Positions 30,599-33,239 of a stretch of DNA of 52,278 bases are shown here, one piece after another (positions within the stretch are counted from its first letter, which is position 1; each line of letters opens with the position of its first letter). The notes under the pieces were generated by a model, which did no database searches, had not been told where the DNA came from, and saw only the letters and a program-made list of their open reading frames with translations. Origin of the DNA: Candidatus Poribacteria bacterium (lineage in GTDB: Bacteria > Poribacteria > WGA-4E > WGA-3G). The position numbers were made by a program, and so were the translations under genes. The DNA is taken from NCBI GenBank assembly GCA_026706025.1, contig JAPOZO010000065.1, positions 1 to 52,278 of the forward strand, read 5' to 3'.

Positions 30599-32056
30599 AT
30601 GGCACAACAAAGCGTAACACTCCAAAAACTTGATGAATACCGGTGGCGTATCCCGAAAAGTTATATGAAAGGCATGCGCGTTGACGGCATCGTCTATGCC
30701 AACGAGAAACTCCTTGAACAGGCAAAAAGCGACGAGGCGTTGCAGCAAGTCGCAAACGTCGCGCATCTCCCCGGCATCGTCAAACACTCACTCGCGATGC
30801 CCGATTTACACTGGGGATACGGCTTCGTCATCGGCGGTGTTGCTGCCACGGATCCGAAGGCGGATGGTGTCGTCTCTCCCGGTGGCATCGGATACGACAT
30901 CAATTGTGGGGTCCGGCTCATCCGGACGAACCTTGATGTCGCACAGCTTGATGGAAAACGGAAAGCACTCATCGGCAGGTTGTTCGAGAACGTCCCGTGC
31001 GGTGTCGGCTCCAGCGGCGCAATTCGGCTCACCGTCCAAGAAGAACGACGGATGCTCGAAAGAGGCGCGCAGTGGGCAATTGACCGGGAGTACGGACACC
31101 CAAACGACCTCAATTTTACCGAAGCGACCGGTTTCCTCCAACAGGCAAACGCCGACGCTGCGAGCCAACGCGCCTTAGAACGTGGTAAAAACCAGCTCGG
31201 CACCCTCGGCTCCGGCAACCATTTCCTTGAAGTCCAAACCGTTGACCGTATTTTTTATAGAGAAGCCGCCGATGCGATGGGGTTAAGCGAAGGTAACGTC
31301 TGTGTGATGATTCATACCGGTTCACGCGGCTTCGGTTACCAGATCTGCGATGAACACGTCAAGAGTTGGGTCAAAGTTGCCGAAAGATACGGCATCAGAC
31401 TTCCTGACCGACAACTCGCCTCCGCGCCGATTAACTCACCAGAGGGCCAGGACTATATCACTGCAATGGCGTGTAGTGCCAACTACGCATGGAACAATCG
31501 ACAGTGTATTATGCACCTCGTCCGCCAGACGTTCATGCAATTTTTTGACACAACAGAAGACGAACTCGGCTTAGAACTCGTCTACGATGTCGCGCATAAC
31601 ATCGGAAAATTTGAGAAACACACCGTTGATGGCAAAGAACGTGAACTCTTTATCCACCGCAAAGGTGCGACGCGCGCGTTCCCAGCAGGGCATCCAGAAA
31701 TCCCGGAAAAATACCAGAAAGTCGGGCAGCCCGTGCTAATCCCCGGCGATATGGGTACCGCCTCTTACGTGCTTGTCGGCAATCCGGGTGCGATGGCGGA
31801 GACGTGGGGCACCACCTGCCACGGTGCCGGTAGAGTCCTCTCACGCCGGAAAGCGATCGCCTTGACAAAGGGACGTTCCATCCAGAAAGATTTGGAAGCA
31901 CAAGGGATTTTCGTCCGCGCCGAAGGTAGACGGACCCTCCAAGAAGAGGTGCCCGAGGCTTACAAGGATGTTGATGAAGTCGTCCGTGTCGTTGACAAAG
32001 CCGGGCTTTCGCGGCGGGTCGCACGCCTCCGTCCTATCGGTGTCGTAAAAGGTTAA
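30599..32056 (+). CDS. rtcB: RNA-splicing ligase RtcB
   Basis: GTP- and Mn-dependent ligase joining RNA 2',3'-cyclic phosphate (or 3'-phosphate) ends to 5'-OH ends, used in RNA repair. The 485-residue protein has the family signatures: MPDLHWGYGFVIGGVAA, GGIGYDINCGVRL with metal-binding Cys103, GTLGSGNHFLEVQ, MIHTGSRGFGYQ, and TCHGAGRVLSR with His408, the residue guanylylated in characterised RtcB. No archease or rtcA gene lies beside it. The gene is flanked by a palindromic element upstream and a repeat-rich segment downstream, so it is probably monocistronic. Confidence 0.95.
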   Translation: MAQQSVTLQKLDEYRWRIPKSYMKGMRVDGIVYANEKLLEQAKSDEALQQVANVAHLPGIVKHSLAMPDLHWGYGFVIGGVAATDPKADGVVSPGGIGYDINCGVRLIRTNLDVAQLDGKRKALIGRLFENVPCGVGSSGAIRLTVQEERRMLERGAQWAIDREYGHPNDLNFTEATGFLQQANADAASQRALERGKNQLGTLGSGNHFLEVQTVDRIFYREAADAMGLSEGNVCVMIHTGSRGFGYQICDEHVKSWVKVAERYGIRLPDRQLASAPINSPEGQDYITAMACSANYAWNNRQCIMHLVRQTFMQFFDTTEDELGLELVYDVAHNIGKFEKHTVDGKERELFIHRKGATRAFPAGHPEIPEKYQKVGQPVLIPGDMGTASYVLVGNPGAMAETWGTTCHGAGRVLSRRKAIALTKGRSIQKDLEAQGIFVRAEGRRTLQEEVPEAYKDVDEVVRVVDKAGLSRRVARLRPIGVVKG

Positions 32057-32220: not shown

Positions 32221-32904
32221 ATGAAAAACTTAACACTTATCGTACTCGCATCCGCAAGTATAATCGCAATCCTATCCTTTATCTTGACATCCTGCGGCAC
32301 CCCAATCGAAGCGCAAGATGTCATAGAACCTTCGACTGTTACTGCTAACGACTTGGCAGCTATCCTTGAGGGGATGCCGCTTTCGGATGTTAAAGAGGCG
32401 ATATTGAAGGTGGATCCTGAGGTTCGGTCGTTAATTGGGGTTCATGCTTTAAATAGTCTACCCAGTGAAACCGCTTTTGATACAGGCAAATTGTTAAAGG
32501 GTAAGGTCCGGGAGGGGGCATCCTCAATATCGCTTGATGAGTTCGTCACGGTATACCTGAATGAAATATCGCAAGTGGATGTTGATGTTCGCGCGTTGAT
32601 TGGGGTTCGGGCGTTAAACTCTCTGAATGATGTGTCCGATGAATTCGCTTTTGATAAAGGTAAGTTATTAGAGGGTGAGGTTCGGGATGGTGCCGCCTCA
32701 GCACTGCTTGATGAACTTGTCAACGCATGCTTGGTGGAAGTCCCACATCTAATATCACCAGACATCACCGATGCGGAGATGGAAGAATTTGTTAACAGTT
32801 CATGCTTTACAGATATGCGACGTAAGTTCAGGGATTTGAATCAATTGTACTCTATTATGTTAGAGGAAGTGCTGTCTAAAGAGTACACGCTGCCGCCATT
32901 GTAG
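32221..32904 (+). CDS. Lipoprotein with an internal tandem duplication, function unknown
   Basis: The 227-residue product has a signal peptide and lipobox ILTSC. Two copies of a roughly 55-residue unit follow: VRSLIGVHALNSLPSETAFD with GKLLKGKVREGASSISLDEF, and VRALIGVRALNSLNDVSDEF with GKLLEGEVRDGAASALLDEL. The repeats look helical and acidic. I do not recognise the family. AAGGAAG upstream supports ATG 32221. The stop is followed by an imperfect hairpin (GAAGCGAT...ATCGCGACTTC, 32905-32929) without a U-tract. Confidence 0.7.
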   Translation: MKNLTLIVLASASIIAILSFILTSCGTPIEAQDVIEPSTVTANDLAAILEGMPLSDVKEAILKVDPEVRSLIGVHALNSLPSETAFDTGKLLKGKVREGASSISLDEFVTVYLNEISQVDVDVRALIGVRALNSLNDVSDEFAFDKGKLLEGEVRDGAASALLDELVNACLVEVPHLISPDITDAEMEEFVNSSCFTDMRRKFRDLNQLYSIMLEEVLSKEYTLPPL

Positions 32905-33005: not shown

Positions 33006-33082
33006 GTGTCTATTTTTTTATGATAGCATGACTCAAAAACGGGCAATACTGGCGCGCTTGTTGTCCAAAATAGACACTTTCC
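33006..33082. promoter_or_regulatory. Inverted repeat upstream of the sigma54 promoter (possible activator sites)
   Basis: AGTGTCTATTTT (about 33006-33017) and its exact inverse AAAATAGACACT (33067-33078) face each other across about 50 bp, ending 7 bp before the -24 element. Enhancer-binding proteins of sigma54 promoters use inverted upstream sites, though usually a little farther away. The 33 bp between it and the preceding lipoprotein hairpin are A/T-rich and empty. Confidence 0.4.
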
Positions 33083-33084
33083 GA

Positions 33085-33101
33085 TTGGCACGGAAATTGC
33101 C
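33085..33101 (+). promoter_or_regulatory. Sigma54 (RpoN) promoter
   Basis: TTGGCACG (33085-33092), four bases GAAA, then TTGCC (33097-33101). This matches the -24/-12 consensus TGGCACG-N4-TTGC at every conserved position, with the invariant GG and GC 10 bp apart. Transcription would start near 33112. It points into the structured segment that follows, so it needs a bacterial enhancer-binding protein encoded elsewhere. Confidence 0.75.
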
Positions 33102-33111
33102 TATTTTAAAT

Positions 33112-33239
33112 AAACCTCCTTGGATAAGCCGGAAGCATAGTTCCTGAAGGGCGTAGTTTGCAAGCCTATATTGCATACGTTAGGTTAGAATCCCTGAAAC
33201 CTGAAAACCCTTTGGGAAGTGGCTTCCGGTTCCTTTTTT
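33112..33239 (+). ncRNA. Candidate sigma54-dependent small RNA, about 128 nt
   Basis: It begins at the predicted start of the sigma54 promoter and ends in TTTTTT (33234-33239). A 10-bp closing stem joins AGCCGGAAGC (33127-33136) to GCTTCCGGTT (33222-33231, one G-U pair), immediately followed by CC and the U-run, so the closing stem can also be the terminator; a local GGAAG-UGG-CUUCC hairpin (33215-33227) is an alternative. Inside, CGTA/TGCAA (33152-33163) pairs with TTGCA/TACG (33171-33179) with a 3-nt bulge and a 7-nt loop. No reading frame is convincing, and I recognise no Rfam family or riboswitch consensus. Target unknown; the next gene (33672) is 430 bp away. Confidence 0.6.

Follow-up and report, generated by a model that had tools for sequence, protein, structure and literature searches.

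Regulatory RNAs that depend on sigma54 include the Qrr sRNAs of Vibrio and CrcZ of Pseudomonas. GlmY of the enterobacteria is likewise a single sRNA made from a sigma54 promoter with a dedicated activator (PMC7073468), and the Salmonella rsr-yrlBA-rtcBA operon carries sigma54-linked Y RNAs next to rtcB (PMC7790460). A precedent of another kind is alpha-r14 (“cuckoo”, NfeR1) of the alphaproteobacteria, a trans-acting RNA with an ultraconserved anti-Shine-Dalgarno (anti-SD) motif, CCUCCUCCC, in unpaired regions (PMC10746234).

The locus considered here lies in a window (the whole stretch of DNA analysed, 52,278 nucleotides) from a Candidatus Poribacteria genome. Poribacteria are uncultured bacteria known mainly from sponges, and a literature search of partial coverage returned no described small RNA from them. 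The predicted small RNA spans positions 33112-33239 of the forward strand (~128 nt), with a predicted start at 33111-33113 and a predicted end at a T-run. Upstream on the same strand is a gene named from its sequence as an rtcB-like RNA ligase (30599-32056), and a 227-aa ORF (32221-32904) sits between this gene and the RNA. The locus had been described as lacking a protein frame, and indeed no ORF of at least 60 aa extends over it; across 51 homologues the longest frames inside the RNA are variable (3-24 codons), and the length differences among copies are not multiples of three.

A sigma54 -24/-12 promoter of the form TTGGCACG-N4-TTGC (33085-33100, forward strand) precedes the RNA and is present at all 51 homologous loci. 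The preliminary description had claimed such a site, and TTGGCACG-GAAA-TTGC is found exactly at these positions, in agreement with the consensus. No other exact TGGCAYRN4TTGC occurs in the window; when one mismatch is allowed, however, the pattern occurs 10 times vs. 3.5 expected, so that the site by itself is weak proof of a promoter. Genome-wide, TTGGCAYRN4TTGC has 57 exact matches vs. one for the reversed pattern, which, combined with the presence at every homologous locus, is strong evidence for the predicted promoter. The spacing between promoter and RNA is 12-13 nt in 46 of the 51 aligned copies, and the RNA model begins 11 nt past the sigma54 site in the window's genome, which agrees with the distance at which sigma54 should start transcription.

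As its predicted proteins indicate, sigma54 is used in this genome: the rpoN gene on which the preliminary description had made its promoter depend is there (one RpoN, E 8e-59), and about 20 proteins contain a sigma54-activation domain (i.e., enhancer-binding proteins). Of 30 sigma54 sites read, several lie upstream of stress genes, namely dnaK, groEL and a gene for a small heat-shock protein, and another stands before the gene of an enhancer-binding protein (names taken from translated sequence). Near-consensus sites stand before groEL, dnaK and the small heat-shock protein gene at loci L107, L110, L113 and L114 of the window's genome, and part of the heat-shock response may thus be under sigma54 in these Poribacteria. 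In Planctomycetota and Bacteroidota, chaperone genes are predicted to be sigma54-controlled (PMC12316311).

Most copies have two to three boxes between 65 and 116 nt upstream of the RNA start: TGTCTATTTTTT and, in inverted orientation, AAAAAATAGGCAA. Box 1 of the window (TGTCTATTTTTT, 33007-33018, forward strand), a putative activator half-site, is kept in most homologues; box 2 (AAAAACGGGCAA, family consensus AAAAAATAGGCAA, 33035-33046, reverse strand) is inverted relative to it, and the promoter-proximal box 3 (AAAATAGACA, 33067-33076, reverse strand) is conserved only in part of genus g1. When 10 genomes were searched, the dyad of boxes 1 and 2 occurred at this locus alone, in the four genomes that match the pattern. 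Likewise, 29 of the 30 other sigma54 sites in the genome lack the boxes and the remaining one has a weak single-box match; neither the 30-site survey nor the 10-genome dyad search revealed co-regulated genes with the same boxes. This confinement to the RNA locus suggests a dedicated activator, whose gene does not appear to adjoin the RNA. RtcR, considered as a candidate, is absent from 38 of 38 genomes of the genus. On sensing a signal, the putative enhancer-binding protein would bind the TGYCTATTTTTT boxes, and sigma54 polymerase would then transcribe the RNA from about 33112.

Homologues of the RNA were detected by blastn in most genomes of the window's genus, and a covariance model built from 31 of these genus homologues recovered exactly one copy in each of 52 out of 58 family genomes. 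These belong to three genera (33/38 genomes of the window's genus, itself included, and 1/2 and 18/18 in the two others), and the model had no match in 26 genomes of the phylum outside the family. The 5′ tail had 34 matches in a named collection. Of these, 33 came from Candidatus Poribacteria, and the last, in a “Betaproteobacteria” bin (L202), falls within what chance was estimated to produce there, given the length of the pattern.

Comparison across relatives, proposed in the preliminary description as a check on its structured RNA, showed that the stems covary. In an alignment of 51 copies fitted to the covariance model, which favours structure, 24 of 38 pairs are changed on both sides, 89% of cells are paired, and 118 cells carry double changes, vs. 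38 ± 6 after shuffling and a maximum of 41 with partners slid (i.e., more than in any of 500 shuffles or any slid control). A MAFFT alignment of 31 copies points in the same direction (24 double-change cells vs. 9.8 ± 2.5). Register shifts between clades hid the side hairpins from RNAalifold at its default settings, and relaxed settings recovered them. Covariation in both alignments indicates selection on the fold at the level of the RNA. Neither the window nor six divergent homologous loci matched an Rfam 15 family at gathering score, and a permissive search of the RNA region returned chance matches only, in line with the preliminary description, in which no known family had been recognised. 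Together with RpoN and a family-wide promoter and structure, this lends support to the initial proposal of a new sigma54-dependent small RNA.

The window's RNA has a minimum free energy of -48.6 kcal/mol, vs. -33.0 ± 3.5 for dinucleotide shuffles (z = -4.43, none of 200 shuffles being equally good). It contains a long stem (33127-33231, forward strand) in which 14 of 19 pairs are changed on both sides, with imperfect pairing above the lower part. This lower part (33127-33136/33222-33231) doubles as terminator stem and corresponds to the closing stem first proposed: its 10 pairs are there (one of them G-U), but the T6 run does not directly follow the 3′ arm as had been stated, since CC intervenes. 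The T6 run (33234-33239, forward strand) of the predicted intrinsic terminator is kept in most homologues, and nearly all of them retain a terminator-like end. An internal bulged 9-bp hairpin had also been claimed, and a hairpin of 4+5 pairs, P3, is predicted at 33152-33179 (forward strand) from fold and covariation, with both sides changed in six of seven model pairs and 81.5% of cells paired; it is missing from a few g2/g3 copies. A 17-nt sequence within P3 (GGCGTAGTTTGCAAGCC, window 33150-33166) recurs dispersed as imperfect palindromes, CGGCGTAGTTTGCAAGCCG (L004, L006, L007), and a small dispersed repeat may have shaped P3 in the window's clade. The adjacent small hairpin P4 (33180-33197, forward strand), UUAGG-UUAGAAUC-CCUGA, is strongly conserved in sequence, including its loop, with 92% of cells paired and slight covariation. 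The long stem and side hairpins would protect the RNA and end transcription.

The most conserved feature of the RNA, more so than the stems, is CCUCCUU at +4 (33115-33121, forward strand), invariant and at a fixed position in 51 of 51 copies. The preliminary description had mentioned neither this 5′ anti-SD tail nor the upstream boxes and the linkage to rtcB. CCUCCUU matches the 3′ end of 16S rRNA, and can thus pair with Shine-Dalgarno sites. Its mean predicted unpaired probability is 0.69, with pairing to the rest of the RNA at 0.3% and the remainder in a weak local hairpin, GCCU-CCUU-RGGU. The 5′ tail would pair with the AAGGAGG Shine-Dalgarno sites of a few mRNAs and so block ribosome binding, perhaps assisted by an Hfq-like protein. 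The genome encodes an Hfq-like LSm protein (weak match, 31 bits), whose Hfq-like domain (YKHGIYTF) lies C-terminally in a longer frame, in contrast to a short Hfq (L238:1440-1650).

The same conserved elements could instead serve a sigma54-dependent RNA that binds a protein, by sequestration or as a scaffold (as CrcZ and 6S RNA do), with the 5′ tail and the P4 loop as binding sites. The long conserved branched fold and the conserved P4 loop would fit such a role, as would the absence of a genomic surplus of extended complements: the full 12-nt complement, ACCCAAGGAGGC, with one mismatch allowed, is no commoner than the reversed control. However, the invariant element is a 5′-terminal, mostly unpaired anti-SD, as pairing seeds usually are; there is no match to 6S or any other Rfam family; and one copy of genus g2 (L165) has lost P4 yet retains the 5′ tail. 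We consider protein binding unlikely on balance, although it is the strongest of the rival explanations weighed here.

If the RNA acts by pairing at Shine-Dalgarno sites, its seed would be selective, since AAGGAGG occurs in one of 188 sampled genes. Only one gene with an intact AAGGAGG at the Shine-Dalgarno position recurs in seven of seven genomes. It encodes a 350-aa lipoprotein that belongs to no Pfam family and has homologues in 54 of 57 family genomes. In all seven genus genomes tested, 9-10 nt of its leader are complementary to the RNA; the window's own RNA has an A at position 3 and loses one pair with the leader. The AAGGAGGC pattern is matched by 46 of 50 lipoprotein leaders and was seen on reading in three of the other four, this octamer being also kept in g2 and g3. 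However, ribosome selection alone could keep AAGGAGGC in these leaders, and most g3 leaders lack a change matching the G to A substitution at RNA position 11 in g3, so that pairing beyond the core finds no support in covariation. A hairpin often stands directly before AAGGAGGC; at one locus (L175:1450-1540, homologues L294-L343) the leader hairpin GCCAUUC..GAAUGGU abuts AAGGAGGCAAUNUUAUCNAUG and is near-unchanged in three genera. The lipoprotein leader may itself be a regulated one. We regard the conserved lipoprotein mRNA as the best candidate target, a lead rather than a result.

The genes around the RNA bear on two further explanations. The preliminary description had left room for a leader, and a same-strand gene does lie downstream in the window (33673 onwards). 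Yet the downstream genes differ between genomes, being convergent within 100 nt in L075 and L085, and the terminator-like end is kept nearly everywhere. Variable or convergent downstream genes argue that the RNA is no leader, and a leader or attenuator of a downstream gene seems to us highly improbable.

Upstream, the neighbour is conserved in most genomes: rtcB, on the RNA's strand and about 120 to 2200 nt away, is found at 20 of 21 wide loci and, among 15 further loci whose upstream DNA reaches far enough, at eight. This linkage would suit an RNA-repair function, the RNA being a Y-RNA-like partner or substrate of RtcB under sigma54, as in the Salmonella operon, where rtcBA is RtcR-controlled and Y RNAs are encoded (PMC7790460), and P4 slightly resembles a tRNA T-arm. 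As a T-arm mimic, P4 was set aside (its loop is mostly 8 nt, with A in place of tRNA C56), as was rtcB as a target, with no visible Shine-Dalgarno sequence at its start. Against a repair function, none of the genus's 38 genomes encodes the Ro60/TROVE protein or RtcR, Rfam gives no Y RNA match, and the RNA, which has a promoter to itself, is kept where rtcB does not adjoin (L087, L153, L155, L157 and others). Isolated relatives outside the genus carry Ro60/TROVE (G039, G071) or RtcR (G073, G081), at loci L038-L042. We therefore read the rtcB linkage as an ancestral position rather than a function, and rate an RNA-repair role as improbable, if less so than a leader.

Overall, the RNA is probably a stand-alone trans-acting sRNA, induced by a signal through an activator and blocking ribosomes on a few mRNAs with strong Shine-Dalgarno sites. 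The sigma54 promoter, the single unit with its own terminator, the fold and the free seed are supported by sequence; activation via the boxes, Shine-Dalgarno pairing, the translation block, Hfq-like help and the transcript itself are what we infer from them. It is tempting, and distinctly more speculative, to see a sigma54 riboregulator peculiar to this lineage, with a 5′ end that mimics the 16S rRNA 3′ end, in a signal-triggered competition with ribosomes on a few perfect-Shine-Dalgarno mRNAs, including the structured-leader lipoprotein mRNA. The predicted anatomy is complete, testable and conserved across three genera (own boxes, promoter, start, seed, fold, terminator and candidate target), and opens RNA-level regulation in an ungrown phylum to study via metatranscriptomes and surrogate hosts.

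Set against the known systems, a sigma54 switch combined with a single 5′-terminal anti-SD seed on a branched stem had no Rfam match, and no such RNA was found in the literature searched, with most subscription papers outside the search. The Salmonella operon also places a sigma54-linked noncoding RNA beside rtcB, but the window's genus has neither Ro60 nor RtcR, and its RNA is an independent unit. Qrr sRNAs occur in several copies, whereas the Poribacteria RNA is single-copy in each genome, and the CA-rich Hfq-binding motifs of CrcZ were not seen in it. With GlmY it shares the sigma54 switch, but GlmY is a decoy for RapZ, and no common fold was found. Closest in its proposed mode of action is alpha-r14, which likewise has a conserved anti-SD motif. 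Membership in that family was rejected: alpha-r14 carries CCUCCUCCC in each of three hairpins, whereas the Poribacteria RNA has a single CCUCCUU, 5′-terminal on a branched stem, and differs further in its phylum, its sigma54 promoter and the lack of an Rfam match. The RNA family is thus new, and the kind of sRNA that it represents is already known.
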